From NCBI GenBank assembly GCA_017650365.1, contig JAGCEZ010000014.1, positions 1-33,936 of the forward strand: a DNA stretch of 33,936 bases, read 5' to 3'. This document shows, piece after piece, positions 4,389 to 28,075 of the stretch. The stretch is from Fibrobacterales bacterium (lineage in GTDB: Bacteria; Fibrobacterota; Fibrobacteria; Fibrobacterales; CADBQJ01). The notes under the pieces were generated by a model. That model saw only the letters and a program-made list of their open reading frames with translations. It was not told the DNA's origin and searched no databases. Within the stretch, counting starts at the first letter, position 1. Every line of letters begins with the position of its first letter. The translations under genes and the position numbers were made by a program.

Positions 4389-6974
4389 CTAGTTCGCCTT
4401 GGTGCGCATGTAGCCGAACTTCTTGGTGATGACCACGCTGTTCTGGACGACGGCCTTGCGCCAGTGGTAGTTGGCGATGTTGCCGTTGGCCTGCATGGGG
4501 TTGCCGTTGGCGTCGAGGTCGTAGGCGCTCTTCGGCACGCCGTATTCGTCCATGACCTTGCCGGCGCAGGAGAGGAGGACGGGGTCGGACGGGTCCATCG
4601 GGCAGCTGTAGGCGTTGTCGTTGCCGAGCGGCATCACGCTGCCGTCCGCGACGCAGTCCGCGCCGTCCAGCTTGAGCTTCTGGCACATCGTCTTGGCCTC
4701 TTCCTTGAAGAAGCCGCGCATCATGTAGACGCCGGAGGCGATGTGGCGGCCCTTCTGGTCGATCGGGACGAAGTAGACCATCAGGTTGAGGACCAGCGAA
4801 CCGCTCTTCGGATCCTGCGACGCGTAGTTCACGACGTCGGTTTCGGAGAGATAGCCGGAGGCGCTGGTAATGAAGTTGCCGAGGTTGTCGAAGATGTAGA
4901 GTTCGTATTCCACCGGGAAGACGCCGGCCTGCTTGTTGGCCTGGTCCCAGCTCGAGAAGCCTTCGATGCCGCCGAGGTCGACGACCAGCTCCAGGCCGAT
5001 GCCGGCGGTGGTGCTCAGGACGTTGGCGATTTCGCCGGCGTTCGACGGATTGACGAGGCCGCCGTTGACGCCGCGCGTCGAGCCCTTCACCAGGCCCTGT
5101 TCGACGGCGGAGGGGTTGTTCTGGATCAGCTCGTAGCTGTCGTCGGGCAGCTTCGCCATCAGCCACATCGCGTTGGTCTTCATGTATTCGGGCATGTTCG
5201 CGATGGCGGCGACGTTGTCGGGCGTCCCGTTGTTGGCGATGTTGCCGTTGACCTTGATGTCGACGACGGGGCCGTTGACGGCGCCCTTGGAACCGCCGGC
5301 GTAGATGCCGGACTTGTGCTGGATCCCGATGTCGTTCACTTCGACGGTCGCTTCGGAGCGGCCGCGGCAGAAGCCGGAGAACTGCGCGAAGTTTTCTTCG
5401 TCGAAGGTGACGGGGATGTCGCTCAGGTTGCGGTCGTGCGCGACGAACTGGTTGAAGAAGAACATGTTGTCGCCGGAGCTGCTGGCCGGGCAGGAGATCA
5501 TCTGACCGCGAATCGTGCTGTTGCAGCCGGTCGCAACGCCGGTGCTGGAGAGCGTCCCCCAGTTGGTGCCGGTGGCGGGCCAGCCGTTGCGCGCGGCGAG
5601 CACGCCCAGGAAGCCGGCCTGCTTGAAGCGGTCCCAGTTGTCCCCGCTCCAGGTGTACTGCCCGCCCCAGTTGCCGCTGCTGAAGAGCCAGTCGACGAAG
5701 GTGTCCTGCCACTGGAACGGCTGGTTGGGCATCGAACCGTTGCCGATCGGGATGCCGTAGGCGATGAGGGGAAGACCGGACCCCTGGGAGAGCGTGGCGG
5801 CCCACGTGAGCCAGTTGTCCATCTGGCGCTGGTTCCAGAAGAAGGTGCCGGTGCCGGCGCCCGGCATCGGGAAGGAGCTCTGGGCCGTGTAGTGGTTCGA
5901 GTTCTGGACCATGCCGGCGTCGTAGCCGTACTTTTCGATCGCGAAGCCGTGGGGCCAGACGTTGTCGTTCAGACGGGTGCGGGCCTCGTCGTTCCACCCG
6001 AAGAGCTCGCGGTAGAAGCGGACGTTGGCCATGGCGGAAAGCTGGATGTCCTCCGCCTGCCAGTTGACCATGCTCTTGGTGGACTTGAACTCGCGGAGGT
6101 TGTCGTTGGTCAGGTTTTCGGTGGCGCCGGAGCCGGAGCAGCCGTTGGCGTAGACGGCCCAGGTGGAGGCGTGGGCGAAGACGGTCGCGGAGGGAATGGC
6201 GTACCGGACGGCGCGGACCATGGCGCGGGCCAGGCCGGCGACGTTTTCGGGATAGAGGTCGGGATTCGAGTTCACCTCGGAGAGGATCGGCGAGTTGGCG
6301 CTTTGCAGCGCCTGCCGCAGCGGAACGGAGAATTCGAGGACCTGCGCCCAGGTCTTGCCCTGGCAATAGGGCTGGTTGCAGGCTTCGGTCTCGAAGTGGA
6401 AGCGGGCCTGGAGGATGGTGCCCCAGACGTTGGGTTCGAGGATCAGGACGGGATGGGCCGTCTTGGTGATGGCGCCGGCGATCTGGCTGAGCGAGTTGAA
6501 CCAGTTGGCCAGCGTGTTCACGTTGGTCATCTTGTTCAGCATCGCGTCCTTTTCCTGCTTGGCGTCGACTTCGGCGTCTTCCACGCCGATGCCAAGAATC
6601 GACATCACGGCGCCGAGATTGACGATGCGTTCGCTCTCGTGGCCGTCCCAGCCGACGAGGTTGGGAACCGTGGCGCCGAGTTCGTTGTACGCGAGGATTG
6701 CGCTGGCCAGCGAGGCGCAGGAGAAGTCGGAGCAGCCCTGGCCCATCTGCGCGGAGACGAAGCGGTAGGGAATCTGGTTCAGGCCGATGGTGCCGTTGGT
6801 GGTCGGGAGGATGCCGTCGGCCTGGGAGCCCCAGGTGTACCCGAGGGCCATCTGGTTGTTCGGCCAGGTGGAGGGCTTGGTGATGTAGTGGGCGGCCTGC
6901 GCCGAGGCGGAAACGGCGAACAGGGCCATGCCGACGGCGGCGGTGCCCAGGGTCTTGAGAACGCGGTTCGACAT
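4389..6974 (-). CDS. Large secreted protein with TIM-barrel glycosidase-like region and FlgD-like Ig tail
   Basis: I chose ATG 6974 (MSNRVLK...) because an AAAGGGGA ribosome-binding site lies 5 bases upstream and a clean signal peptide follows, ending near residue 27 (ASAQA). The product is 861 residues. Its first ~550 residues align by eye with the adjacent 507-residue paralogue, sharing LILEPNVWGTILQARFHF (177-194), SAMANVRFYRE, EKYGYDAG, FFWNQ, IPIGNGSMPN, DTFVDWLFSSGNW and DNWDRFKQAGFLG. The pattern of strand-end acidic residues, PxGN and xYQDT/QWQDT motifs suggests a (beta/alpha)8 glycosidase-like fold, with Glu180 a candidate acid; this is inference. The remaining ~300 residues are beta-rich, with an Ig/FlgD-like stretch (YELYIFDNLGNFI ... 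DQKGRHIASGVYMMRGFF) and paired cysteines near the end. Likely an extracellular polysaccharide-related protein; substrate unknown. Confidence 0.85.
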   Translation of the reverse strand: MSNRVLKTLGTAAVGMALFAVSASAQAAHYITKPSTWPNNQMALGYTWGSQADGILPTTNGTIGLNQIPYRFVSAQMGQGCSDFSCASLASAILAYNELGATVPNLVGWDGHESERIVNLGAVMSILGIGVEDAEVDAKQEKDAMLNKMTNVNTLANWFNSLSQIAGAITKTAHPVLILEPNVWGTILQARFHFETEACNQPYCQGKTWAQVLEFSVPLRQALQSANSPILSEVNSNPDLYPENVAGLARAMVRAVRYAIPSATVFAHASTWAVYANGCSGSGATENLTNDNLREFKSTKSMVNWQAEDIQLSAMANVRFYRELFGWNDEARTRLNDNVWPHGFAIEKYGYDAGMVQNSNHYTAQSSFPMPGAGTGTFFWNQRQMDNWLTWAATLSQGSGLPLIAYGIPIGNGSMPNQPFQWQDTFVDWLFSSGNWGGQYTWSGDNWDRFKQAGFLGVLAARNGWPATGTNWGTLSSTGVATGCNSTIRGQMISCPASSSGDNMFFFNQFVAHDRNLSDIPVTFDEENFAQFSGFCRGRSEATVEVNDIGIQHKSGIYAGGSKGAVNGPVVDIKVNGNIANNGTPDNVAAIANMPEYMKTNAMWLMAKLPDDSYELIQNNPSAVEQGLVKGSTRGVNGGLVNPSNAGEIANVLSTTAGIGLELVVDLGGIEGFSSWDQANKQAGVFPVEYELYIFDNLGNFITSASGYLSETDVVNYASQDPKSGSLVLNLMVYFVPIDQKGRHIASGVYMMRGFFKEEAKTMCQKLKLDGADCVADGSVMPLGNDNAYSCPMDPSDPVLLSCAGKVMDEYGVPKSAYDLDANGNPMQANGNIANYHWRKAVVQNSVVITKKFGYMRTKAN

Positions 6975-7202: not shown

Positions 7203-8726
7203 CTAGAGCTTCATGTCGGAGGTGGGGTTGGCTTCGAATCCCTCGACCTCCTCCTTGAGCTGGCAGAACCCGGTGAAGCGCCCGAAGAGCATTTCGTCGA
7301 ATTCCACCTTGATGTTCTTCTGCGAGCGGTCCTTGCCGGCGAAGGTGCTGACGAACCAGCCCTTGTCGCCGTCGCTCTTGACGGGGGCCTTGGCGAAGAC
7401 GTCGTATTCCATCGGCCCGTAGTGGGTGCCGTAGGCCGGCCAGCCGTCGCGGCCCACCCAGAGCCCGATGAAGCCCGCCGCCTTGAAGCGGTCCCAGTTG
7501 TCGTCGTTCCACTTGTACTTGCCCTTCCAGTTCTTGCTGGAGAAGAGCCAGTCGGCGAACGTGTCCTGGTACTGGTAGCGCTTGTTGGGGAGCGAGCCGT
7601 TGCCCACGGGCATGCGGAGCGCCAGGAGCGGCAGCTGCAGGCCCTGCGAGATCGTCCTGCTCCAGTCGAGCCACTGGTCGAACTGCGACTGGTTCCAGAA
7701 GAAGATGTCCTTGCCCGAGCCCGGCATGTTCTTGCCGTCGGCGGCGCCCGGATAGCCGGCCTTCGCGTAGCCCGCGTCGTAGGAGTACTTGTCCACGGCG
7801 ATCATGTCGGGCCAGTAGGAGGAGGCGAAGAGCGGGACGCCCTGCGAGTAGTCCCAGCCGAAGATCTCGCGGAAGAAGCGGACGTTGGCCATCGCCGAGA
7901 GGCGGACGTCGGACTCGGTCCAGTTGACGAGGTTCCCCTCGCCCTGGAAGTCGAAGCCGCCCTTGAAGATCTGCTCGTTGATGTCCTCGACCGCGGAGCC
8001 GGCGGAGCAGCCGCGCGCGTAGACCGACCAGGAGTTGGCGTGGAGGGCGATCAGCGGGCTGGGCATGAAGCGGCGGATGGTGACCATCACGGCGCGCGCC
8101 CAGTCGCTCACGGTGTTGGAGTACATGTCGAGGTAGTCGAACTCGGGCCCCAGCTTCAGGTCGGCGTTGCGGACGAGCGCGGGGAACTTCAGGATCTCGC
8201 CGTAGGACTTGCCGGAGGCCGACGCGCGGTTGGCGAAGTGGAAGCGCGCCTGCAGGAGCGTGGCCCAGACGCCCGGCTCGACGACGACCACGGTGTTCAT
8301 CGCGTTGGCCTCCCAGAGCGCCTCGCCCATCTTCTTGATGGCGCGGAAGTAGTCGCGGACCAGCGCGGTGTCGTTCATCGAGGCGATCAGCTTGTCGATG
8401 TTGGTCTCGGCCTTGAAGAACTGGAGGATGAAGCCGTTGGAGAGCCCGAGGCGCTGGCCGTCGTCCACGAACTTCCTGATGTCGGCCAGGCGCGCGTCGA
8501 TCGACTCGTAGGCCGTGTTGACGTAGGTGTAGTGGTAGTAGCCCCTCACGCCCTTGGCCGCGGGGAGGAGCAGGCTGGCCTCGTTCTTCGCGTCGTCGGC
8601 CAGGCCGAGGACCACTTCGTTGGGCCAGCCGCTGGGCATGCGGATGCTTCGCTGCGCGCCGACCGTGGCGACGACGCCGAGCACGGCGACGCAGATCGCG
8701 ATTCTGGAAAACAGTTTAGACGCCAT
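7203..8726 (-). CDS. Secreted protein, TIM-barrel glycosidase-like, paralogue of the following gene
   Basis: A 507-residue product with a signal peptide (MASKLFSRIAICVAVLGVVATVGAQ) and a strong ribosome-binding site (GAGGTGA 4 bases before ATG). It shares order and spacing of motifs with the 861-residue protein downstream: VVVVEPGVWATLLQARFHF (145-163), the HANSWSVYARGCS segment, VRLSAMANVRFFREIFGW, VDKYSYDAG, FFWNQSQFDQWLDW, MPVGNGSLPN, YQYQDTFADWLFSSKNW and DNWDRFKAAGFIGLW. It lacks the beta-rich C-terminal extension. The GH-like barrel assignment rests on the strand-helix rhythm and on Glu150 at the end of a hydrophobic strand, so the enzymatic role is inferred, not shown. Its own terminator follows, so the two paralogues are probably separate transcription units. 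Confidence 0.85.
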   Translation of the reverse strand: MASKLFSRIAICVAVLGVVATVGAQRSIRMPSGWPNEVVLGLADDAKNEASLLLPAAKGVRGYYHYTYVNTAYESIDARLADIRKFVDDGQRLGLSNGFILQFFKAETNIDKLIASMNDTALVRDYFRAIKKMGEALWEANAMNTVVVVEPGVWATLLQARFHFANRASASGKSYGEILKFPALVRNADLKLGPEFDYLDMYSNTVSDWARAVMVTIRRFMPSPLIALHANSWSVYARGCSAGSAVEDINEQIFKGGFDFQGEGNLVNWTESDVRLSAMANVRFFREIFGWDYSQGVPLFASSYWPDMIAVDKYSYDAGYAKAGYPGAADGKNMPGSGKDIFFWNQSQFDQWLDWSRTISQGLQLPLLALRMPVGNGSLPNKRYQYQDTFADWLFSSKNWKGKYKWNDDNWDRFKAAGFIGLWVGRDGWPAYGTHYGPMEYDVFAKAPVKSDGDKGWFVSTFAGKDRSQKNIKVEFDEMLFGRFTGFCQLKEEVEGFEANPTSDMKL

Positions 8727-8807: not shown

Positions 8808-8888
8808 ATGGGATTTTTCGGATTTTTCCGGATTTCTACCTTTGGGCCATGTTCGAACAGCTCACCGACCGCCTCGAAGGCGTCCTGA
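8808..8888 (+). CDS. Possible 26-codon leader peptide overlapping the ffh start
   Basis: An AAAGGAGA Shine-Dalgarno at 8795-8802 is followed 5 bases later by ATG 8808. The reading frame runs 26 codons to TGA 8886-8888, ending 37 bases inside ffh in another frame. The peptide begins MGFFGFFRIS and is encoded partly by a GGATTTTTC tandem repeat. The ribosome-binding site is much better than anything in front of ffh, which suggests translational coupling or regulation. It could equally be fortuitous. Confidence 0.3.
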   Translation: MGFFGFFRISTFGPCSNSSPTASKAS

Positions 8889-10174
8889 AAAACCTCCGCG
8901 GCGAGGGAAAGCTCACCGAAGAGAACGTCTCCACCGCCCTCCGCGAGGTCAGAAGGGCCTTTTTGGAGGCCGACGTCAGCTTCGACGTCACCCGCGAGTT
9001 CGTGCAGGCGGTCAAGGCGAAGGCCCTCGGGGCCGACGTCCTCCAGTCCGTCTCCCCCGGGCAGATGATCGTCAAGATCATCCACGACGAGCTCGTGCAG
9101 ACGATGGGGGGCGTCCAGCGCGAAATCGACCTCTCGGGCACGCCGCCCTGCGGGATCCTGATGTGCGGCCTCCAGGGCTCCGGCAAGACCACCTTCGCGG
9201 GCAAGCTGGCGCTCTGGCTGCGCTCGAAGAAGAAGCGGAAGGTGCTTCTGGTCGCGGCCGACGTCTACCGGCCCGCCGCCATCGACCAGCTGGTCACGCT
9301 CGGGAAGAGCCTGGGCGTCGAGGTCTGGCAGGAGGGCCAGGGCGACCCCGTGAGGATCTGCGAAAACGCGCTGGACCACGCGCGCAAAAACGGCTTCGAC
9401 ACCGTGATCTACGACACGGCGGGCCGCCTGCAGATCGACGACCAGCTGATGCAGGAGCTGGAGAGGATCCAGGCCGCGGTCAAACCCTCCGAAACGCTCT
9501 TCGTGGCCGACGCGATGATCGGGCAGGAGGCCGTGAACGTCGCGGCCGAGTTCCACCGGCGCCTGGCCTTCACGGGGGTCTGCCTCTCCAAGCTGGACGG
9601 CGACGCCCGCGGCGGCGCCGCCCTCTCCATCCGCAAGGCGACCGGAGCCCCGGTGCTCTTCGTGGGCGTGGGCGAAAAGCTGCACGAACTGGAGCCCTTC
9701 CACCCCGACCGCCTCGCGGGGCGCATCCTGGGGATGGGCGACGTGGTCTCGCTGGTCGAGAAGGCGCAGGAGGTGGTGGACGCGAAGGAGGCGAAGAGCC
9801 TCACGCGCAAGCTCCTCAACAACACCTTCGACCTGGAGGACTTCCTCGGGCAGCTGCGCGCGGTGAAGAAGATGGGCCCGCTGAAGAGCGTGCTCGGCAT
9901 GCTCCCGGGCATGGGCCAGCTCTCCGACATGGTGGACGAGAAGCAGATCAACCGCGTGGAGGCGATCATCTCGTCGATGACGCCGAAGGAACGCCGCGAA
10001 CCCCGGATCCTGAACGGATCGCGCCGCAAGCGCATCGCGCTCGGCTCGGGGACCACCGCGCAGCAGGTCAACCAGGTGCTCGCCCAGTTCGAGCAGATGA
10101 AGAAGATGACCAGGCAGCTGAGCGCCATGGCGACCCGGATGAAGGGCAGGAAGGGCCCGATGTTCCGCCGCTGA
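8849..10174 (+). CDS. ffh: Signal recognition particle protein Ffh (SRP54), GTPase
   Basis: This is the protein core of the bacterial signal recognition particle. It binds 4.5S RNA and nascent signal sequences and docks with FtsY to target membrane proteins. In order: N helical bundle (1-90), P-loop GLQGSGKTT (107-115), DVYRPAA (138-144), DTAGR (189-193), SKLDGDARGG (247-256), GVGEK, and the RILGMGD linker. The Met-rich M domain carries MKKMGPLKSVLGMLPGMGQL and the RNA-binding SGTTAQQVNQVLAQF segment. The length of 441 residues is normal. No other in-frame start exists downstream of the stop at 8789-8791. No Shine-Dalgarno precedes the ATG; instead TACCTT lies 6 bases before it, compatible with a leaderless transcript. 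The lysine aminomutase gene follows after 19 bases. Confidence 0.97.
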   Translation: MFEQLTDRLEGVLKNLRGEGKLTEENVSTALREVRRAFLEADVSFDVTREFVQAVKAKALGADVLQSVSPGQMIVKIIHDELVQTMGGVQREIDLSGTPPCGILMCGLQGSGKTTFAGKLALWLRSKKKRKVLLVAADVYRPAAIDQLVTLGKSLGVEVWQEGQGDPVRICENALDHARKNGFDTVIYDTAGRLQIDDQLMQELERIQAAVKPSETLFVADAMIGQEAVNVAAEFHRRLAFTGVCLSKLDGDARGGAALSIRKATGAPVLFVGVGEKLHELEPFHPDRLAGRILGMGDVVSLVEKAQEVVDAKEAKSLTRKLLNNTFDLEDFLGQLRAVKKMGPLKSVLGMLPGMGQLSDMVDEKQINRVEAIISSMTPKERREPRILNGSRRKRIALGSGTTAQQVNQVLAQFEQMKKMTRQLSAMATRMKGRKGPMFRR

Positions 10175-11444: not shown

Positions 11445-12272
11445 TCAGTAGAGGAATTCGAAATCCTTGACGACGAGACGGGCGCCCTTGGTCCCCTCGA
11501 AATGGTCGCCGCGGCGGCTGGAGGCGAAGACGACGTTGACGTGCGTGACCGGTTCGCCGGCGGCGCCCTGTTCGACCCCGTCGGGCAGCGGGTCGGCCCC
11601 CTTGTGGAGCCGGCCGTAGACGAAATAGAGCTCCACCGTGCGCAGTCCGTTGGAGTCGCGCGCGGAGATGGAGCGCACCCCCTCGCGCGTCATGTCGGAG
11701 TCGTTCGGCGAGCTGTACCAGGCCGTCGCGACGTAGCGCCGCGAGCCGCCGGAGCGGTTTTCCAGCGTGGCCATCACCGTGCAGGAGTCCCCCAGCCCCT
11801 CGTAGGCCATCTTCACGCGGATTCCCTTCGGCCGCGCGGTGAACGGCGTCCCCCAGTCGATCAGCTTCTTGCCGTCGTCGGTGAAGCCCAGCAGCTGCGC
11901 GAGCGAGAGTTCGCGCTGGATGCGCCCGGTGAAGAGGTTGCCGCTGGCGATTACCCCGACCACGCGCCGCGTGACGAGCTCCGCCGCGACGGAACCGTCC
12001 TTGAGGACGACCGGTTTCGTGGGCCAGTTCTTCGACCCCGAAGCCGAGAAGGCGGGATTCCCGTTGTCCCAGACGGTCTGTCCCGAGTCTCCGGCCATGG
12101 CGTCGCACTGCACGTGCCCGAAGGTGGCGAAGCCGCGGACCTGCTCGGAATGCCATCTGGAGAAGTCGGAGCCCGGCAGCTGCGGGCCCAGGTTCGTGAG
12201 GAAGAGCGGCTGCGCCGCGAGCGGAACGGCCAGCGCGAAGAGAAGCAGGGCGGAGAGGACTCCCCTACGCAC
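11445..12272 (-). CDS. Secreted PCMD-domain (putative carbohydrate metabolism) protein
   Basis: A 275-residue protein with a signal peptide (MRRGVLSALLLFALAVPLAAQ). It has the hallmarks of the PCMD family: an early LPGSDFSRWHSE segment, WDNGNPAFSASG, a strand-rich middle and the characteristic ending VVFASSRRGDHFEGTKGARL followed by VVKDFEFLY. PCMD proteins are secreted beta-sandwich proteins found mainly in Bacteroidetes and relatives and are thought to bind or act on carbohydrate; the activity is not established. The start overlaps the end of the glycosyltransferase gene by 8 bases, so the two are translationally linked. I see no C-terminal sorting domain. Confidence 0.85.
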   Translation of the reverse strand: MRRGVLSALLLFALAVPLAAQPLFLTNLGPQLPGSDFSRWHSEQVRGFATFGHVQCDAMAGDSGQTVWDNGNPAFSASGSKNWPTKPVVLKDGSVAAELVTRRVVGVIASGNLFTGRIQRELSLAQLLGFTDDGKKLIDWGTPFTARPKGIRVKMAYEGLGDSCTVMATLENRSGGSRRYVATAWYSSPNDSDMTREGVRSISARDSNGLRTVELYFVYGRLHKGADPLPDGVEQGAAGEPVTHVNVVFASSRRGDHFEGTKGARLVVKDFEFLY

Positions 12273-13383
12273 GGGGCCTCCCGGGCTTCAGCCCGCGGTA
12301 CACCTCGATCATCCGCTCCACCGAACGCGTCACGCGGTACCGTTCGCCCTCCTCGGCGTAGCGCGGAGCCATCGCGGCCCGTTCCTCCGGATGCTCGATC
12401 CACCAGTCGATCTTCGCGGCGAGGTCCGCGGGGTCGCCGTGGCGGAAGAGCGAGCGGTCATCGAGCGCGAACTGCGGCGTGGCGCTCTTGGGCGAATCGG
12501 AGATGACCGGCACGAGGCCGCAGCTGAAGGCCTCCATGCAGGAGATGGCCTCGATCTCGACGTCGGAGGCGTGCACGTAGAGGTCCGTGGAGGCGATCAG
12601 CTTCAGAAGCTCTTCCGTGGAATAGAAGCCGAAGGTGGCGGGGACGGGCAGCGCCTCGGCCATCTTCCTGTATTTCGCGGCGCTGGGGCCCTGCCCGGCG
12701 AAGTGGAGCTCGATTTCGTCCCGGTGCTTCGAGAGGAGCGCGGCGCGGATCACCAGGTCCTGGCGCTTCTCCGGGCTCAGGCGCCCGATCATCAGGATGC
12801 GGAACCGTTCGTGCGGAATCCTCTCCATCGGGCGGAAGATCTCGTCCACGCCGTTGCTGATCACGTGGAGATCGGCCTTGTAGCCGTTCCTGCGCAGTTC
12901 GCCCGCGATGAAGGCGCTCGGGCAGTGGATGTCGGCGAAGCGTCCGAAGAAGTAGCGGCGCAGGAATCCGTAGAAGAAGCGCGCGACGCAATCGAAGCGG
13001 CCCAGCCCGATGTTGTAGGAGATGTTCTCGGCCTGGATGTGGAACGCCGCCAGGCAGGGAATCCCCCTGGCGCGGGCCGCCTTCTCCACGACGCGGGCCA
13101 GCGGAAAAGGCATGTAGAAGTGGACCACGTCCACGCCGTCGAGGAAGGCCTCGATCGTCTTCGCGTCGGGCTTCGCGAAGGTAATGTGCTGCTTGTCGGC
13201 GAAGTAGGTGACCAGCGGGATCCAGGCGCGTTGGAGAACGTACTTGTCGGGGCCGGGCGCGCCGGCGGTCAGCACGCGGACGACGTGTCCCTGCGCGCGG
13301 AGATGCTCCACGAACCGTCTCGCGGAGCAGGTGGTGCCGTTGTTGAGATCGTCGAAGCTGTCGACGACGAATCCGATGACCAT
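12265..13383 (-). CDS. GT4-type glycosyltransferase (GT-B fold)
   Basis: A 372-residue cytoplasmic or membrane-associated sugar transferase. The N-terminal Rossmann half starts IGFVVDSFDDLNNGTTCSAR and includes DVVHFYMPFPLARVV. The C-terminal half has ISNGVDEIFRP, MIGRLSPEKRQDLVIRAAL, LHFAGQGP, ASTDLYVHASDVEIEAISCM and EAFSCGLVPVISDSP, the nucleotide-sugar-binding E-x7-E-like region of GT4 enzymes. It resembles glycolipid- or mannosyl-transferases, but donor and acceptor cannot be told. The gene lies 48 bases after pyrC' and overlaps the PCMD gene by 8 bases. Its ATG has no clear ribosome-binding site; TAGTTT lies 9 bases upstream, so a separate start of transcription is possible. Confidence 0.88.
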   Translation of the reverse strand: MVIGFVVDSFDDLNNGTTCSARRFVEHLRAQGHVVRVLTAGAPGPDKYVLQRAWIPLVTYFADKQHITFAKPDAKTIEAFLDGVDVVHFYMPFPLARVVEKAARARGIPCLAAFHIQAENISYNIGLGRFDCVARFFYGFLRRYFFGRFADIHCPSAFIAGELRRNGYKADLHVISNGVDEIFRPMERIPHERFRILMIGRLSPEKRQDLVIRAALLSKHRDEIELHFAGQGPSAAKYRKMAEALPVPATFGFYSTEELLKLIASTDLYVHASDVEIEAISCMEAFSCGLVPVISDSPKSATPQFALDDRSLFRHGDPADLAAKIDWWIEHPEERAAMAPRYAEEGERYRVTRSVERMIEVYRGLKPGRPRA

Positions 13384-13431
13384 GACGCAGTCAAACTACA
13401 AAACGCACGGTCCGCGAACCACCCCCGGCGC

Positions 13432-14679: not shown

Positions 14680-15590
14680 TTGCCGATCCCTCCCGCGAGA
14701 AGGTAGAGGGCCGCCATGCGCACGGCCACGCCGTTGGTCACCTGGTCGAGGATCACGCTCTGTTCGGAGTCGGCGACCTCGGAGTCGAGCTCGATGTTGC
14801 GGTTGACCGGGCCGGGGTGCATCACCATGGCCGAGGGGTTCCAGGCGTCGAGCCGTTCGCGCGTGATGCCGTAGCAGGCGCGGTATTCGCGCTCGCTGGC
14901 GAGGTAGCCGTCGTTCTGGCGCTCGCGCTGCACGCGCAGGGCCATCACCACGTCCGCGCCGCGGACCGCCTGCTCGAGGTTCGGGGCGATCTCCACGCCG
15001 AGGTCCGACATGTCGCCGGGCATGAGCGTGGGCGGGCCGCAGAAGACCACGTCGGCGCCGAGGGTCTTCAGCCCCCAGGCGTTGGAGCGGGCCACGCGGC
15101 TGAACCGGATGTCGCCCACGATGGCGACGCGCAGCCCCTTGATCTCGCCGAAGCGCTGGCGCATGGTGAACATGTCGAGGAGCGCCTGCGTGGGGTGCTC
15201 GTGCGCGCCGTCGCCCGCGTTGAGGACGATGGCGTGGGTGTTCTTCGCGAGGAAGGCGGGGACGCCCGCGCCCGAGTGGCGGACCACCACGAGGTCGATC
15301 TTCATCGACTCGATGTTGTGGACCGTGTCGAGCAGCGTCTCGCCCTTGGAGATGGAGCTGCCCGAGGAGGTGAAGTTGATCAGGTCGGCGCTCAGCCGCT
15401 TCTCCGCGAGCTCGAAGGAGATGCGGGTGCGCGTGCTGTTCTCGAAGAAGAGGTTGACGATGGTCGTGCCCCGGAGCGAGGGGACCTTCTTCACGGGGCG
15501 GTCGAGCAGTTCGCGGAACGACTTCGCCGTGTCGAGGATCGCGTAGATCTCCTCTTCGGGAACGCCTTGCAGGCCGAGCAGGTGCTTCAT
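14676..15590 (-). CDS. pyrB: Aspartate carbamoyltransferase catalytic subunit
   Basis: It joins carbamoyl phosphate and aspartate to form carbamoyl aspartate, the committed pyrimidine step. The 304-residue protein has the carbamoyl-phosphate motif FENSTRTRISFE (49-60), the SKGET loop (81-85), the AGDGAHEHPTQALLDM block (125-140) and HPGPVNRNIEL near the C-terminus. I set the start at ATG 15590 because the open frame extends upstream only as non-homologous, Arg/Pro-rich sequence. This start overlaps the pyrR stop by four bases (ATGA), and the stop overlaps the pyrC' start in the same way. No pyrI regulatory subunit is nearby, which fits assembly with a PyrC'-type partner. Confidence 0.97.
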   Translation of the reverse strand: MKHLLGLQGVPEEEIYAILDTAKSFRELLDRPVKKVPSLRGTTIVNLFFENSTRTRISFELAEKRLSADLINFTSSGSSISKGETLLDTVHNIESMKIDLVVVRHSGAGVPAFLAKNTHAIVLNAGDGAHEHPTQALLDMFTMRQRFGEIKGLRVAIVGDIRFSRVARSNAWGLKTLGADVVFCGPPTLMPGDMSDLGVEIAPNLEQAVRGADVVMALRVQRERQNDGYLASEREYRACYGITRERLDAWNPSAMVMHPGPVNRNIELDSEVADSEQSVILDQVTNGVAVRMAALYLLAGGIGK

Positions 15591-16162
15591 TTCGTCTCCT
15601 CCTCGAAGAGGCGGACCACGTCTTCGCCGTCGGTCTCCTCCAGGCTCACGCGGACTTCGCCGGAGATGCGCCCCTGGAGGGTGAGCCCGGAGAGGTCGGG
15701 CACGATCGGCATCTCGCGCCCGGGGCGCGAGACCAGGACCCAGAACTTGACGAACGCCGGGCGCCCGAGGTCGGAGAGGGCGGTCAGCGCGGCGCGGGCG
15801 CTGCGGCCCGTGTGCATCACGTCGTCCACGAGGATCACCCCCGCGCCGTCGAGGTCCTGGAGGGCGGGAAGGCCGTCCGCGGGCATCTTGATCTCGGAGC
15901 GGACGTGGATGTCGTCGCGGTAGAAGGAGGGGTCGAGGGAGCCGGGCTGCGCGGGGACGCCCATTTCGTTCAGCTTCGCGGCCAGCCGTTCGGCCAGGGG
16001 GATGCCCCGGGTCGCCAGGCCGATCACGCGGAGGGGGCGGTCCGATCCGCATGACGCGAAACGAGCCGCGGCCTCGGCCACGGCTTCGGAAATGGCCCGC
16101 TTCCCCATCAGCTGGACGGCTGCGCCCTGTCCGTCGTTCGGAAGTCGGTCGTTGTTGTTCAT
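15587..16162 (-). CDS. pyrR: PyrR: pyrimidine regulator / uracil phosphoribosyltransferase
   Basis: A 191-residue type I phosphoribosyltransferase with IGLATRGIPLAERLA (47-61), LDPSFYRDD (76-84) and the PRPP-binding motif VILVDDVMHTGRS (109-121), then SRPGREMPIVPDL and a VRVSLEETDGEDVV ending typical of PyrR. In Gram-positives PyrR binds the pyr leader RNA and attenuates transcription, and it can also make UMP from uracil. Here it is the first gene of a three-gene operon, joined to pyrB by ATGA. Only 79 bases separate it from the preceding gene, and part of that is the other gene's terminator, so a classical attenuator leader does not fit. TATCTT lies 8 bases before the ATG. Confidence 0.93.
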   Translation of the reverse strand: MNNNDRLPNDGQGAAVQLMGKRAISEAVAEAAARFASCGSDRPLRVIGLATRGIPLAERLAAKLNEMGVPAQPGSLDPSFYRDDIHVRSEIKMPADGLPALQDLDGAGVILVDDVMHTGRSARAALTALSDLGRPAFVKFWVLVSRPGREMPIVPDLSGLTLQGRISGEVRVSLEETDGEDVVRLFEEETK

Positions 16163-16209
16163 CGTTCCAAAAGATAGTCGCTGTTCGCTCTTTGTCCGGG
16201 TTCCGAAAC

Positions 16210-17779: not shown

Positions 17780-17797
17780 AATGGCTAATTTTCGCCC
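17780..17797 (+). promoter_or_regulatory. Leaderless-type -10 element before the membrane glycosyltransferase
   Basis: TAATTT (17786-17791) ends six bases before ATG 17798, so transcription would start at or next to the start codon. No Shine-Dalgarno is present. The sequence AATGGCTAATTTTCGCC (17780-17796) recurs exactly at 24285-24301, and a close variant (GCTATTTTTCGTCCC then ATG) precedes gtrA at 22365. No -35 is evident. Confidence 0.5.
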
Positions 17798-20332
17798 ATG
17801 GCACCACTCTCCGCGCTCCGCGAAAAGCTCTCCCCCCTCGCCGGCCTCTGGAAACGCGAACGGGCCCTCGTCCTGGGCCTGGCCTGGACGCTCCTCGTCC
17901 TCGTCGTCGCCGCGGTCGTCTTCAAGAAGACCCCGAACGATGTCGCCAAGCGGTTCGACATCGCGCTCGGGTTCCACTGGCTGATCGCCACGGCCCTCCT
18001 CGCGCTGGCCGGATTCGCCCTCAACGCGAAATCGCTCTGGAACGCGGCCCGGAAGCGCCTCCCGCCGCTCGCCCCCTCCCTGGCCGTGGCGGCGGCGACG
18101 GTCTTCGCGGCCGTCGTCTGCCTGGACTGGATCCCGCTCCAGCACCGCGTCCTCTCGGACGAAAGCTCCTGGGAGGGGATGGCGATCCAGATGCGCTACA
18201 ACGGCAGCGGCGGGGTCTGCAACCAGGGCTGGTTCGAGGACGGGAAGCTGGAATGCTTCGACGAGGTGAACAACTTCAAGGGCAAGGCGATGTCGCTCGC
18301 CGAGCTCGCCGCGTTCGCCTTCGGGGAACCCACGCGCGACTCCGCGCTCCGCGTCAACCTCCCCCTCTTCCTCCTCTCGATTCCCCTGCTCTTCCTCGTC
18401 CTGTGCCACTCCACGGGGCGCCCCTGGCTCGCGGCCAGCGCGTGCGCGGTGCTGGCGACCATGCCGACGATGCTCTTCCAGGCACGGGCGGCGAGCACGG
18501 AGGTCCTCTACGTCTTCCTGCTGCTCCTGGTCGTCTGGTTCGCGCAGCTCCTCGCGACCGAGGGGTACAGGGGGAGGCACCTCCTGCTCCTCCTCCCGCT
18601 TCTGGGGATCTTCGCGCAGACGCGCCAGGAGACCGTCTTCGCCTTCCTCGCCTTCGCCTGGTACTGGCTCCCCTGGTTCCGGCAGAAGAGCTGGCACGCC
18701 CCGGCCTGGGCGCTCGGCGCGATCGCGGCCAGCTTCCCGATCCTCGCGGTCATCTGCGGCTACAAGGGCTACAACTTCCAGGGCGGGAACTACGCGCCGC
18801 ACTCGATCGGCAACCTCGCCGTCAACTTCTGGGACAACGTGCGGATCATGCTGGGGCTCGAGCGCGAGCCGAGCGGCCTGCTGAGCGACCCCTTCTTCAC
18901 CGCGCAGACCGTCGCGACCTACCTCGGGCTGGTCGTGGCGACCGTCCTGGCGATCTTCACGACCCGCTGGCGCCGCCAGATGTGGATGGGGCTGCTCTTC
19001 TTCGTCCAGCCGGTCGTCATCATGGTGAACGTGAGCGGCAACTTCAACATCGACATCAACCAGCGCTACGTGCTGACGATGCTCCCCGCCTTCGCGATCC
19101 TCGCCGCGATCGGGATCCACGAGCTGTTCGAGCGCCCGGTCGGGCTCCTGGCCGGGAAGAGGGCCCCCGTCGCGCTCTTCGCCGCCGTCGCCGTCGTCTG
19201 CGCCGCGCTCGTGCTGGGCCACCGCGCCGACTTCGAGCAGAACTCGATGTACCGCAAGAACAAGCTGCTGACCGAGGAGGCCTACCTCCACGAGATGCTG
19301 AAGGACACCGCGCGCTTCCCCGAAAAGTCGCTCTTCGTCTACGCGCGCCCCTGGCAGATGGTCTGCTCGGGCCGCAGCGCCATCAGCGAGTCGCGGGCCA
19401 TGCGCTGGAGCGCGGACGACTTCCGGCAGTGGAACGAGAAGACCGGCGGGAACATCTTCCTGGTCCGCGGCCAGGACGGCTACGGCAAGGTGGACCGCAA
19501 CTCGCGCGTGGTCGGGTTCAAGACCACGGACGACGTCGGGAAGATCCTCGAGAAGTACGAGACGGAGACCGTGGACCGCGCCGTGGAGAACTTCGGCTAT
19601 CCGCTGGTCACCCAGCGCCTCCTGAAGATCCGCGGGGCGCGCGACTGGACCTCGCGCGTGGCCGTGGCGACGGAATCGCAGTGGCTGAAGGCCGGCGACG
19701 CGCCGAAGTTCCGCCTGCGCCGGGGCGCGGACGACACCCTGCGGATCCAGGCGAGCGAACGGATCTCGGGCGAGGTCTTCCTGGACCGCGCGATGGAGCC
19801 CGGAGACAGCCTGCTCGCGCTGCCCGCGCGGACGGCCCCGGGCCCGGTGCTCTACCGCTTCCGCTTCTCCACCTCCGAGGGCGACTCGCTCGTGGTCGAG
19901 CGCGACGTCTGGTTCGCGGGCGGGAACGCGGCGCTCCTGACCTCCTTCCCGCTCCTCGACCAGAAGGTCGGCTGGGGCTCGCTGCAGATCAACCAGTCGG
20001 TCGAGCGCAACGTCCTCCACGCCTCCGACGCCCCGTTCACCTGGGGCTTCGGGGCCCACGCGGACAGCAAGATCTCTGTCCGGCTCGCGCGCAAGCACGC
20101 GCGGCTCCGCTTCGTCGCGGCGCTGGACGACGAATCGCTCTGCGGCGACGGCGCGGTCTTCGCGGTCTCGGGCGACGGCAGGGCGCTCTGGCGCTCGAAG
20201 CCCCTCTACGCCTACGACTGGCAGGTCGGCGACGTGGACGTGTCGGGCGTGGACGTCCTGACGCTGACCACGGAAAGCCGCGACAACACGATGTGCGACC
20301 ACACCGACTGGCTCCATCCCTGGGTGGAATGA
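17798..20332 (+). CDS. Polytopic membrane glycosyltransferase with C-terminal NPCBM domain
   Basis: An 844-residue protein. The first ~460 residues hold about ten to twelve hydrophobic helices with short loops (for example LVLGLAWTLLVLVVAAVVF, LLLLVVWFAQLLA, MWMGLLFFVQPVVIMVNV) and a conserved-looking DESSWEGMAIQ segment after the second or third helix, as in ArnT/GT39/GT83-type lipid-phosphate-sugar transferases with a catalytic Asp-Glu in the first extracytoplasmic loop. A soluble region follows from about residue 480. The last ~130 residues match an NPCBM carbohydrate-binding module: WGSLQINQSVERNVL, FTWGFGAHADSKISVRL, RFVAALDDES, VFAVSGDGRALWRS and VDVSGVDVLTL, ending DHTDWLHPW. The stop overlaps the next glycosyltransferase start (ATGA). 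Likely a surface-glycan or lipid glycosylation enzyme; substrate unknown. Confidence 0.85.
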   Translation: MAPLSALREKLSPLAGLWKRERALVLGLAWTLLVLVVAAVVFKKTPNDVAKRFDIALGFHWLIATALLALAGFALNAKSLWNAARKRLPPLAPSLAVAAATVFAAVVCLDWIPLQHRVLSDESSWEGMAIQMRYNGSGGVCNQGWFEDGKLECFDEVNNFKGKAMSLAELAAFAFGEPTRDSALRVNLPLFLLSIPLLFLVLCHSTGRPWLAASACAVLATMPTMLFQARAASTEVLYVFLLLLVVWFAQLLATEGYRGRHLLLLLPLLGIFAQTRQETVFAFLAFAWYWLPWFRQKSWHAPAWALGAIAASFPILAVICGYKGYNFQGGNYAPHSIGNLAVNFWDNVRIMLGLEREPSGLLSDPFFTAQTVATYLGLVVATVLAIFTTRWRRQMWMGLLFFVQPVVIMVNVSGNFNIDINQRYVLTMLPAFAILAAIGIHELFERPVGLLAGKRAPVALFAAVAVVCAALVLGHRADFEQNSMYRKNKLLTEEAYLHEMLKDTARFPEKSLFVYARPWQMVCSGRSAISESRAMRWSADDFRQWNEKTGGNIFLVRGQDGYGKVDRNSRVVGFKTTDDVGKILEKYETETVDRAVENFGYPLVTQRLLKIRGARDWTSRVAVATESQWLKAGDAPKFRLRRGADDTLRIQASERISGEVFLDRAMEPGDSLLALPARTAPGPVLYRFRFSTSEGDSLVVERDVWFAGGNAALLTSFPLLDQKVGWGSLQINQSVERNVLHASDAPFTWGFGAHADSKISVRLARKHARLRFVAALDDESLCGDGAVFAVSGDGRALWRSKPLYAYDWQVGDVDVSGVDVLTLTTESRDNTMCDHTDWLHPWVE

Positions 20333-22365: not shown

Positions 22366-22378
22366 TATTTTTCGTCCC
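22366..22378 (+). promoter_or_regulatory. Leaderless-type -10 element before gtrA
   Basis: TATTTT (22366-22371) is followed by seven bases and ATG 22379. The wider string GCTATTTTTCGTCCC resembles the element before the membrane glycosyltransferase. It sits in an 18-base gap after trmO, where no ribosome-binding site is visible. This would give gtrA its own start of transcription inside the gene string. Confidence 0.4.
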
Positions 22379-22822
22379 ATGATCACGCTCAAGCGCCTCC
22401 TCACCCCCGGAAAGACCTGGAAGGAACAGTTCGTCCGCTACTTCGTCGTCGGCGGCATCGCCACGGTCTTCGACTGGGCGATCTCCTTCACGCTCAACTT
22501 CTTCGGCGTCTGGTCCTCCGCGAACGGGATCTTCTCCGGGCTGGAGGGGATCCTCTGCGGCGCGAGCGGCTTCGCCGTCGGGCTCTGCGTCAACTACGTC
22601 CTGAGCATCACGGTCGTCTTCGACAACCGTTCGATGAAGAACGTCTGGCACGAACGGATCATCTTCGTCGCCATCGCGCTGATCGGGCTGCTGCTCCACA
22701 GCGCCATCATCTGGATCTGCCAGAACCGCGCCGGGATGCCCTTTGAAATGGCGAAGGTGACGGCCACGGCCATCACCCTCGTCTGGAACTTCCTGTCGAA
22801 GAAGCTGACGATCTTCCGCTAG
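22379..22822 (+). CDS. GtrA-like small membrane protein
   Basis: A 147-residue protein with four predicted membrane helices (about 20-42, 52-76, 90-112 and 120-140), starting with the family's FVRYFVVGGIATVFDWAISF pattern. It includes the second-helix GFAVGLCVNYVLSITVVF segment and a short Lys/Arg-rich C-terminus (VWNFLSKKLTIFR). GtrA proteins are thought to move or help present undecaprenyl-phosphate sugars across the inner membrane. This fits the two glycosyltransferases upstream, one of which is membrane-embedded. Its stop codon overlaps the stop of the convergent gene (CTAG at 22819-22822). Confidence 0.9.
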   Translation: MITLKRLLTPGKTWKEQFVRYFVVGGIATVFDWAISFTLNFFGVWSSANGIFSGLEGILCGASGFAVGLCVNYVLSITVVFDNRSMKNVWHERIIFVAIALIGLLLHSAIIWICQNRAGMPFEMAKVTATAITLVWNFLSKKLTIFR

Positions 22823-25813: not shown

Positions 25814-26563
25814 ATGAAAACCATGACCACAGAAACGAGGATGCGGAAGCTCCAGCTTCTGTACCTCAAGTACACCAACAAGGCGGGCTACGCCGGAGCC
25901 TGGGATTTGCCGAAGATGCATTGCAGCACGGACGTCTATCCGGACTACATCGCGCTCTTCGGCCAGCCGTCGGATTACCGGCGAACTTCGAAGACCGCGG
26001 TCGCGTTCTTCCAGTATGACGACGTGTTCGACGGCCAGCACGGGCTCTACAACGCCATCTACTACGGCAACAGGAAAGACCTCCGCACGTTCAAAAAACG
26101 CTTCAAGGGTGTCCGCTTCGCAATCGCGCCGGACTGTTCGCTCTGCGGCGACGTTGACAAAGCGGAGATTCTGATTCGAATCAAGCGTTCCAGGGTCGTG
26201 GCCATCTGGATGACGATTGAACTCGGCATCTGCGTGATTCCGCTGGTCTCGTTTCCCCGTGCCGCCGATCTGGACGACATATTGGCCGGATTGGAAAACT
26301 GCGAAGTCGTCGCGTTCAGCACGAAAGGCTTCGTCAAGGATTCGGAAGAACGCGCAAACCTGATTGAAGGCGTCAAGCGGACCGTAGATCGGCTCAATCT
26401 AAAGGCCATCGTCGTGTACGACGTGTGCAAAACAGACAAGGACGCGCTGGAAATCTTCGATTACGCCGTCAAGAAAGGCATCCAGATCGTCGTCCCGAAC
26501 AACATCCTGAAGGAGCGGAACAGGCAAACGAAAACAATCAACAAAGGAGTGCGACATGCATAA
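25814..26563 (+). CDS. DUF4417-family protein
   Basis: A 249-residue protein starting at ATG 25814 after a GAGGGAG ribosome-binding site. It matches DUF4417 in order: FDGQHGLYNAIYYGNR (72-87), FKGVRFAIAPDCSLCGDVDKA (97-117; the family has a PDFSLYxDMP-type motif), ICVIPLVSF (139-147; family VIPTV), CEVVAFSTKGFVKDSEE and LNLKAIVVYDVCK. The family occurs on phages and other mobile elements and has no established activity. The stop lies eight bases inside the EndoU gene, so the two are translationally coupled. A phosphoesterase or nucleic-acid-related role would be a guess. Confidence 0.8.
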   Translation: MKTMTTETRMRKLQLLYLKYTNKAGYAGAWDLPKMHCSTDVYPDYIALFGQPSDYRRTSKTAVAFFQYDDVFDGQHGLYNAIYYGNRKDLRTFKKRFKGVRFAIAPDCSLCGDVDKAEILIRIKRSRVVAIWMTIELGICVIPLVSFPRAADLDDILAGLENCEVVAFSTKGFVKDSEERANLIEGVKRTVDRLNLKAIVVYDVCKTDKDALEIFDYAVKKGIQIVVPNNILKERNRQTKTINKGVRHA

Positions 26564-27104
26564 ATCGGATGCCGGCCTCGGCCACGGCACCTCGGGATCG
26601 CCGCAAGGCGCGCTCGAAGAGCTAGAATACGAGGCGAAGACAAAACAGATTGAAGAGGAACTCCGGAAGGAGTTTCCGCAACAGGAGTCGAAGGAGGCCG
26701 CGCTGGCGAACCTGCAACGCACGGAACGATTCGCCGACGGGGCCATAAAGCATATATTTAACGGAGAGATCAACCCCAAAGGCAAAGCCGTCGGCTACCA
26801 CTACGAAGGTCTCGCAGGAACCGATGGCCGAGTCGTACCAGGAACAAAATCCGCCGAAGACTCCACGGGAGTCTATCGCGCAAAAGTCGAGGTGAACGGC
26901 ATAAGGAAGAAAATTCCTTCGACGTTCTTTCCAAAAAGCTGGTCACCTCAGCAAATCGTGGACACGATCAACGCCGCATATGACAAACGCGCCCCTTTGC
27001 AAAACGGCCTCTACTCGGCGACCGCCAACGGCATCACGATACAAATGCGGTTGGACCCGAGTGGAAAGATTGTGACCGCCTACCCGCGTATGATGGAGGG
27101 ATAG
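26556..27104 (+). CDS. EndoU-type RNase toxin
   Basis: A 182-residue protein with AAAGGAG before its ATG. The first ~55 residues are charged and helical. From about 60 to the end it matches the bacterial EndoU domain: AIKHIFNGEINPKGKAVGYH (63-82), with His66 and His82 as the likely catalytic pair, then GVYRAKVEVNG, STFFPKSWSPQQIVDTINAA (122-141), and GITIQMRLDPSGKIVTAYP (159-177). Bacterial EndoU domains are RNA-cutting C-terminal toxins of contact-dependent and polymorphic toxins, usually on a large secreted carrier. Here the domain stands alone, without signal peptide or delivery domain. It lies between DUF4417 and a putative immunity gene starting one base after its stop. An intracellular toxin of a mobile element, or an orphan carried for exchange, are the main options. 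Confidence 0.82.
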   Translation: MHKSDAGLGHGTSGSPQGALEELEYEAKTKQIEEELRKEFPQQESKEAALANLQRTERFADGAIKHIFNGEINPKGKAVGYHYEGLAGTDGRVVPGTKSAEDSTGVYRAKVEVNGIRKKIPSTFFPKSWSPQQIVDTINAAYDKRAPLQNGLYSATANGITIQMRLDPSGKIVTAYPRMMEG

Positions 27105-27105
27105 C

Positions 27106-27507
27106 ATGAAGTACGCAGTTAGACCTTTCGTCAACGAAGGCAAAACCGAAGAGATTCTTTTCGACTTCATTCCTCCGAACGAGGTTCTGTCGTGCTTTTT
27201 GGTCGCCGATTTCGGATTTTCCCCCGAAACCTATATAGCCGCCATCAACGCCGTCCTCGACGGAAAATCGGAAAAAGAGGATTTGGACGGAAATGACACG
27301 AATGTCGTCTTCGGGCCAGAAAAGACCACAATTGAGTCTCTGTGGACGGAGGAACAAGGCGCTCCGGCTCCATGCGTCGTGAACACGCGAGAACTTCGCC
27401 AAGTGATGGACGAGTGGCTTTCGTATCACAATCGAATCATGGCCGAACGCACGCACAAGCCGCAAGACGGCGGCCCTGCCGCAGAGGGGAAAGGAGAAAC
27501 ACGATGA
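27106..27507 (+). CDS. Putative EndoU immunity protein
   Basis: A 133-residue acidic soluble protein with GGAGGG ahead of its ATG, beginning one base after the toxin's stop codon. It has no signal peptide. It resembles the 120-residue protein at 27713: INAVLDGKSEKEDLDGND aligns with IDRVLSGKEKEIESFGNE, and VVNTRELRQVMDEWL with AVDTKVLRGLIDEFV. Each of the two follows directly after an EndoU sequence, which points to an immunity role. Immunity-protein families are highly diverse and I cannot name one. The stop overlaps the next start (ATGA). Confidence 0.7.
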   Translation: MKYAVRPFVNEGKTEEILFDFIPPNEVLSCFLVADFGFSPETYIAAINAVLDGKSEKEDLDGNDTNVVFGPEKTTIESLWTEEQGAPAPCVVNTRELRQVMDEWLSYHNRIMAERTHKPQDGGPAAEGKGETR

Positions 27508-27716
27508 AAGAGAACGGATTCAGAACGTTCTTCCCGAAGAACTGGTCGCGGCAGCAGGTGGTCGACGCGATCAACGAGGCCTACGACAGCAAGGTGCGGC
27601 AGCCCGGTTCGAAGAACGTCTTCGTGGGAAGGACCGCAGCCGGGATGCTGATCAAACTCCGCCTCGACGCGAAGGAGATGATCACGACAGCCTTTCCGAT
27701 GACGGAGGAAGCATGA
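27504..27716 (+). CDS. Displaced C-terminal half of an EndoU toxin
   Basis: The start is ATG 27504, with AAGGAGA six bases upstream; earlier in-frame starts lie inside the immunity gene. The 70-residue product, FRTFFPKNWSRQQVVDAINE then GMLIKLRLDAKEMITTAFPM, corresponds to about residues 120-178 of the full toxin at 26556. It lacks the part with both catalytic histidines and should be inactive. Its own start, ribosome-binding site and ATGA overlaps keep it translatable in the string. It is visibly more GC-rich than the full toxin. I interpret it as the stub of an older toxin left when a new toxin/immunity pair was inserted. A structural or decoy role is possible. Confidence 0.72.
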   Translation: MKENGFRTFFPKNWSRQQVVDAINEAYDSKVRQPGSKNVFVGRTAAGMLIKLRLDAKEMITTAFPMTEEA

Positions 27717-28075
27717 ACCACAAGGTCGAAACCATGGACGTCGGCGGCAAGCGGCTGATGTGCTTCGTCTTCGAGGAAGGCAACGGGGTCCTGGACGCGT
27801 TCTTCAACGGCGACGTCCGCGAGTTCCACGACGGAATCGCGGAGCAGATCGACCGCGTCCTCTCCGGAAAGGAGAAGGAGATCGAGTCCTTCGGGAACGA
27901 ATGCGGATGGCTCGTCCGCAGCGACCTGTACACCATCGTGGACAACTACGCGCTCGACGAAAAGAGGAACTGGTTCGCCGTGGACACGAAGGTCCTTCGA
28001 GGCCTGATCGACGAATTCGTCGAAAAGAACGCCGAATTCCGTCGGGCGGAGAAGCCGAGAGACGCGAACGGCTAG
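27713..28075 (+). CDS. Second immunity-like protein (orphan immunity)
   Basis: A 120-residue acidic soluble protein preceded by GGAGG. Its ATG overlaps the stop of the EndoU stub by four bases. It contains GIAEQIDRVLSGKEKEIESF, FGNECGWLVRSDLYTIVDNY and WFAVDTKVLRGLIDEFVEKN, similar in order to the 133-residue protein at 27106. It follows a toxin stub in the same way that its relative follows the full toxin. Its base composition resembles the surrounding chromosome, so it may be the older, resident member. The stop codon overlaps that of the convergent diguanylate cyclase (CTAG). Confidence 0.7.
   Translation: MNHKVETMDVGGKRLMCFVFEEGNGVLDAFFNGDVREFHDGIAEQIDRVLSGKEKEIESFGNECGWLVRSDLYTIVDNYALDEKRNWFAVDTKVLRGLIDEFVEKNAEFRRAEKPRDANG

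Follow-up and report, generated by a model that had tools for sequence, protein, structure and literature searches.

Do genes that lack a ribosome-binding site, and have a TAnnnT hexamer 6–9 bases before their ATG, produce mRNAs without a leader? The question is raised by five genes in a stretch of 33,936 nucleotides (the window), which is an entire contig of a 2.08 Mb MAG of 67% GC in the order Fibrobacterales. The host MAG belongs to a separate family beside Fibrobacteraceae. Leaderless bacterial genes and the -7 box of Bacteroidota promoters are both already well known. A literature search, thin in its coverage of subscription journals, returned no report of leaderless genes, transcription starts or promoter structure in Fibrobacterota.

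Five close boxes in the window

The features are listed below, with the spacer given as the number of nucleotides between the box hexamer and the start codon.

17786–17791, plus strand: box TAATTT (TAATTTTC); ATG at 17798–17800, spacer 6; predicted transcription start 17798, the A of the ATG, with C before it
17798–20332, plus strand: gene for an NPCBM-domain membrane protein of 844 aa (Pfam), predicted leaderless
8837–8842, plus strand: ffh box TTTC-TACCTT-TG; spacer 6; predicted transcription start 8849
8849–10174, plus strand: ffh (Pfam SRP54), predicted leaderless
22366–22371, plus strand: gtrA box TATTTT; spacer 7; predicted transcription start 22379 or 22378
22379–22822, plus strand: gtrA-like gene (Pfam GtrA), predicted leaderless
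16171–16176, minus strand: pyrR box TATCTT(TT); spacer 8; predicted transcription start 16163 (G), 1-nt leader
15587–16162, minus strand: pyrR-like gene with a phosphoribosyltransferase domain (Pfam Pribosyltran), predicted 1-nt leader
13393–13398, minus strand: GT4 gene box TAGTTTG; spacer 9; predicted transcription start 13386, 3-nt leader
12265–13383, minus strand: GT4-family glycosyltransferase gene (Pfam Glycos_transf_1), predicted 3-nt leader

The five hexamers, at spacers of 6, 6, 7, 8 and 9, are exactly as the sequence-only reading of this DNA had described them. The box is carried by 5 of the 30 usable genes of the window, against about 0.55 expected by chance (TANNNT control rate 0.46% per position, 1.8% over four positions). 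All five also fit TAnnTT, a tighter form than TAnnnT, as does about 90% of the genome-wide set. NPCBM is the only Pfam match of the gene at 17798, which the sequence-only reading had called an NPCBM glycosyltransferase. The pyrR-like gene (with its box, 15587–16176, minus strand) overlaps pyrB. With this overlap and a predicted leader of 1 nt, a PyrR-type attenuator would not fit into the gene's own 5′ leader, and regulation would need to take another form.

Two other regions of the window deserve mention. Positions 26556–28075 contain two tandem pairs of small genes. The first members match EndoU_bacteria (PF14436), the second match being a 70-aa C-terminal fragment, and each is followed by a small gene; the arrangement is reminiscent of a polymorphic-toxin/immunity cassette plus a displaced orphan copy. 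On the minus strand, the adjacent large genes at 4389–6974 and 7203–8726 share a similar N-terminal sequence with no Pfam family match. They look like paralogues of a probably secreted family.

A probable promoter element close to the start codon

Gene-level analysis covered 755 called genes on 974,511 bp (47% of the MAG), and the remainder was covered by pattern counts. The gene caller was trained from codon-position GC and picked starts by coding score alone, so that the starts are model calls. Only SD matches at least 4 nt long were counted as SD sites. A genome-wide count of TAnnnT against distance to ATG had been proposed as the check on the sequence-only reading, with lack of positional enrichment as its refutation; the count gave a sharp peak at spacers 6–9. 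Over all 15,863 ATGs of the 974,511 bp, counted with no gene calling, TANNNT-N(d)-ATG occurs 19, 75, 63, 37, 39 and 14 times at d = 5, 6, 7, 8, 9 and 10, against a background of about 21. For the whole 2.08 Mb the counts at spacers 5, 6 and 7 are 46, 171 and 152. GTG starts give a smaller peak (33 and 27 at spacers 6 and 7, background about 15), and no TANNNT peak was seen before TTG starts in the 974,511 bp. Among the called genes, 118 of 755 (16%) have TANNNT at spacer 6–9, about 14% over background, or roughly one in seven. Their starts, called on coding alone, yield no box at spacer 5 and 39 at spacer 6. Box genes prefer ATG (107/117 vs 501/615 of the others; odds ratio 2.4, p 0.007).

The consensus of the box is tttCTAkwTTTg, from a motif conditioned solely on TA at -12 or -13 and on the lack of SD. 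With TA at -12 and -13, respectively, the TA is followed by k and w, then T (0.86/0.89), T (0.84/0.89), T (0.52/0.68) and G (0.44/0.40); C stands directly before it at 0.50/0.60, and positions further 5′ are T-rich. T makes up 0.84–0.92 at the fifth and sixth box positions. G is found at 0.38–0.40 in the first n and at 0.04–0.08 in the second, so the no-G form TAHHTTTG does not describe the box. No TTG or TTTG peak marks a -35/-33 element 5′ of it. The promoters of F. johnsoniae possess a -7 element TAnnTTTG that runs from a T at -12 to a G at -5, and their -33 element is weak too (PMC6847099). The host pattern, TA-n2-TTT(G), is that of TAnnTTTG with a weak final G.

The sequence-only reading had held that Deinococcus-type leaderless promoters look the same, that is, that an ordinary sigma70 -10 element (TAnnnT or TATAAT) lies beside the ATG. 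The geometry is indeed shared: the first T precedes the start codon by about 12 nt in a genome of high GC, SD is missing, and no -35 is visible. The resemblance does not extend to the box itself. In the TAnnnT of Deinococcus-Thermus and Actinobacteria the centre is nearly uninformative (PMC3160421), whereas here the fifth base, an A in TATAAT, is T in 86–92%, the near-invariant TT is followed by T and G, and C precedes the TA. TANNAT is nearly absent at spacers 6–9 (3, 3, 2 and 1, vs 43, 39, 16 and 9 for TANNTT). Moreover, sigma region 1.1 was found in the Deinobacterium control and is absent from the 41 genomes of the host's order. An ordinary -10 element is thus improbable. By its sequence, the box is a Bacteroidota-like -7 element.

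A U-rich translational signal, that is, a Bacteroidota-like (non-SD, Kozak-like) ribosome-binding site replacing SD, has also to be considered, since AT-rich 5′ signals in the FCB group are centred 12–13 nt before ATG (PMC3155529; PMC9581028) and SD is missing from the box genes. SD sites occur in 6/118 box genes vs 415/637 others (odds ratio 0.029, Fisher p 2e-37), which extends to the genome the earlier observation that the five genes have no ribosome-binding site and others in the window have good SD sites. In total 419 of the 755 genes have SD. Since the contigs examined yielded no recognisable 16S 3′ end, a functional SD was judged from the positional SD peak: GGAG/GGAGG peaks at spacings 5–8, so SD is in use, and the SD absence of Bacteroidota is not found here. 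A translational signal should serve operon-internal genes as well, but the box is found in only 15/309 of these vs 60/184 divergent first genes (p 2.6e-16). Because of this first-gene bias, the close box is to be regarded as a promoter and not as a ribosome-binding site. The rigid TA-n2-TTT with its preceding C also speaks against a translational signal, as does the occurrence of the same box at varying distances 5′ of SD genes, with a gap at leaders of 4–10 nt. This alternative is very unlikely.

The gap emerges from the best box of each divergent first gene (n = 165): the predicted leader is 0–3 nt in 46, 4–10 nt in 2 and at least 11 nt in 96, and 21 have no box, in a tally that includes the half of the spacer 6/7 sites used to train the PWM. 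Held-out divergent genes show the same dip, with 43 boxes for leaders of 0–3, 9 for 4–10 and 64 for 11–30. 5′ of SD-led divergent genes TAnnTTT is found in 46 (mean of mono-nucleotide shuffles, 4.6), nearly all at 24–69 nt, and the leadered set has T at T+6 in 0.81 and G at T+7 in 0.57.

Where transcription may start can be approached from both kinds of genes. In spacer-6 genes a pyrimidine is at -1 in 38/39 vs 168/412 SD genes (p 3.6e-13), which suits a start on the A of ATG. In spacer-8 genes the base before ATG is G in 73%, preceded by C or A, and the favoured start step appears to shift along with the box. At 42 leadered promoter sites the pyrimidine-purine (YR) step is most frequent at T+11/T+12, though at no more than 0.36 (0.14–0.21 elsewhere). 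This peak is independent of the start codon, because the ATG plays no role in leadered promoters, and it agrees with Flavobacterium starts (T at -12; PMC6847099). The data fit a transcription start 12–13 nt after the first T of the box.

Start-codon miscalls or AT-rich intergenic composition are a highly improbable source of the pattern. TANNNT is commoner in intergenic DNA generally (a rise at d > 25), but the jump in counts at spacer 6 (75, after 19 at spacer 5) needs no gene calls, the coding-only starts repeat it, and Ffh protein matches in relatives start at residue 1.

On the preferred explanation, the housekeeping RNA polymerase uses the hexamers as the downstream element of its promoters. 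The element is a Bacteroidota-like -7 box, and the sigma factor that reads it is probably a short one lacking region 1.1. Transcription would start 12–13 nt past the first T of the box, at a pyrimidine-purine step. A box lying 12–15 nt 5′ of the start codon would give an mRNA that begins at the ATG or 1–3 nt before it and has no SD, and such an mRNA would have to be translated leaderless. The same box at least 23 nt 5′ would give a leader of at least 11 nt with SD. With both placements in one genome, two initiation modes would therefore coexist, as had been proposed from the window and as the sequence statistics support. We infer the starts, the sigma factor and leaderless translation from sequence, and consider it very probable that a Bacteroidota-like -7 box makes both leaderless and SD-led mRNAs in this organism.

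Sigma factor and spread among relatives

The host encodes a 280-aa sigma70-family protein that scores 177 bits against an RpoD equivalog cut-off of 555. Its best matches, of similar length and 52–83% identity, turned up in all classes of the phylum that were tested, the incomplete MAG G142 being the exception. Identity is 44% to the single Alistipes match and 44% to a Calditrichaceae match. Region 1.1 (PF03979) was found in 0 of the 41 genomes of the order; in the controls it was found in E. coli, B. subtilis, Deinobacterium and others, and not in Bacteroides. We propose the 280-aa protein as the likely housekeeping sigma factor that reads the box. The host genome contains three short sigma70-family genes with the region 2 sequence FISYAVWWI, and in G080, a genome of the same class, sigma70-family matches number at least a dozen, an apparent expansion.

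The sole fellow member of the genus among the genomes sampled is MAG RUG14205, whose Ffh is 86% identical to that of the window; Fibrobacter Ffh reaches only about 68%. RUG14205 bears the GenBank label Fibrobacter succinogenes, yet it really belongs to the family of the host MAG, and its GC is 64%. TANNNT occurs before its ATGs 17, 113 and 122 times at spacers 5, 6 and 7. The ffh box is conserved there as TATCTA. Of seven ortholog pairs with a box in either genome, three have a leaderless box in both, among only 57 comparable pairs of starts.

In AT-richer genomes TANNNT counts at spacers 5, 6 and 7 are uninformative, because background and codon phase swamp the signal. The stricter TTCTANNTTT was used instead, with spacers 6–9 compared with 14–17; the genomes are related, so p-values from this comparison overstate independence. 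The counts are 41/2 in the host's own genus, 1781/543 in 29 Fibrobacteraceae genomes (excess in 29/29), 73/20 in families f3 and f4 of the class, and 27/23 in the single f5 genome. Forty-two genomes from the other classes of the phylum show no excess (405/376). The strongest signals of the phylum sample are those of G107 and G136 (family f2, genera g8 and g12), at 143/44 and 111/23, which by this count makes their genera candidates for still more leaderless genes.

In most Fibrobacteraceae ffh loci CTAnnTTTG is located at spacer 8–10 amid diverged flanks, and ffh is predicted to be near-leaderless there, with a leader of 2–4 nt. CACT often stands just before the ffh ATG of Fibrobacter (CACTATG); that is, the predicted mRNA 5′ end is conserved. 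The box was not found in most ffh loci of termite Fibrimonadales. On balance we lean towards the view that the whole class Fibrobacteria, cultured Fibrobacter included, combines a Bacteroidota-type -7 box and a short sigma factor with SD-led and leaderless (0–4 nt) translation. This FCB lineage would then have retained SD, which Bacteroidota lost, and acquired leaderless initiation in addition. One study calls the SD signal of Fibrobacteres "less obvious but still detectable" (PMC3155529), and a mixed population of leaderless and SD genes would explain this weakness.

If this is true, gene callers tuned to SD or to the AT-rich sites of the FCB group could misplace up to about one-seventh of the starts in this genome, and in expression tools for rumen cellulose degraders TATAAT would have to give way to a TAnnTTTG box. 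The class would offer a test case for the coexistence and evolution of leaderless and SD initiation next to the SD-less Bacteroidota. The scarcity of 4–10 nt leaders provides a direct testable sign, the leader being either absent or long enough for SD.

Comparison with known systems

Leaderless transcription is predicted for 21.6% of bacterial species, and the combination of leaderless and SD genes is an established GeneMarkS-2 class; for the FCB group the same study gives AT-rich non-SD sites, with Fibrobacterota unmentioned in its text (PMC9581028). Fibrobacterota is also missing from the leaderless groups listed in PMC3160421. The host share of 16% is within the range given there for Acidobacteria (13%) and Actinobacteria (19%).

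The host resembles Deinococcus-Thermus and Actinobacteria in the position of the box at leaderless genes, the missing SD, the SD-led genes alongside and the lack of a visible -35. It differs from them in a TAnnTTTg-like box with C before TA and, likely, in a sigma factor without region 1.1. With the sigma-ABfr promoters of Bacteroidota it shares TA-n2-TTT(G), a T 12 nt 5′ of the inferred start, the absence of -35 and a short sigma factor lacking region 1.1. Unlike the TAHHTTTG of Bacteroidota, the host box allows G at the first n (-10, T+2), its final G is weak (0.40–0.45), and -33 was not detected. Bacteroidota are mostly leadered, with 3.7% of 5′ UTRs below 10 nt in B. thetaiotaomicron and 5.5% leaderless in F. 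psychrophilum; they have no SD, whereas the host keeps it in more than half of its called genes.
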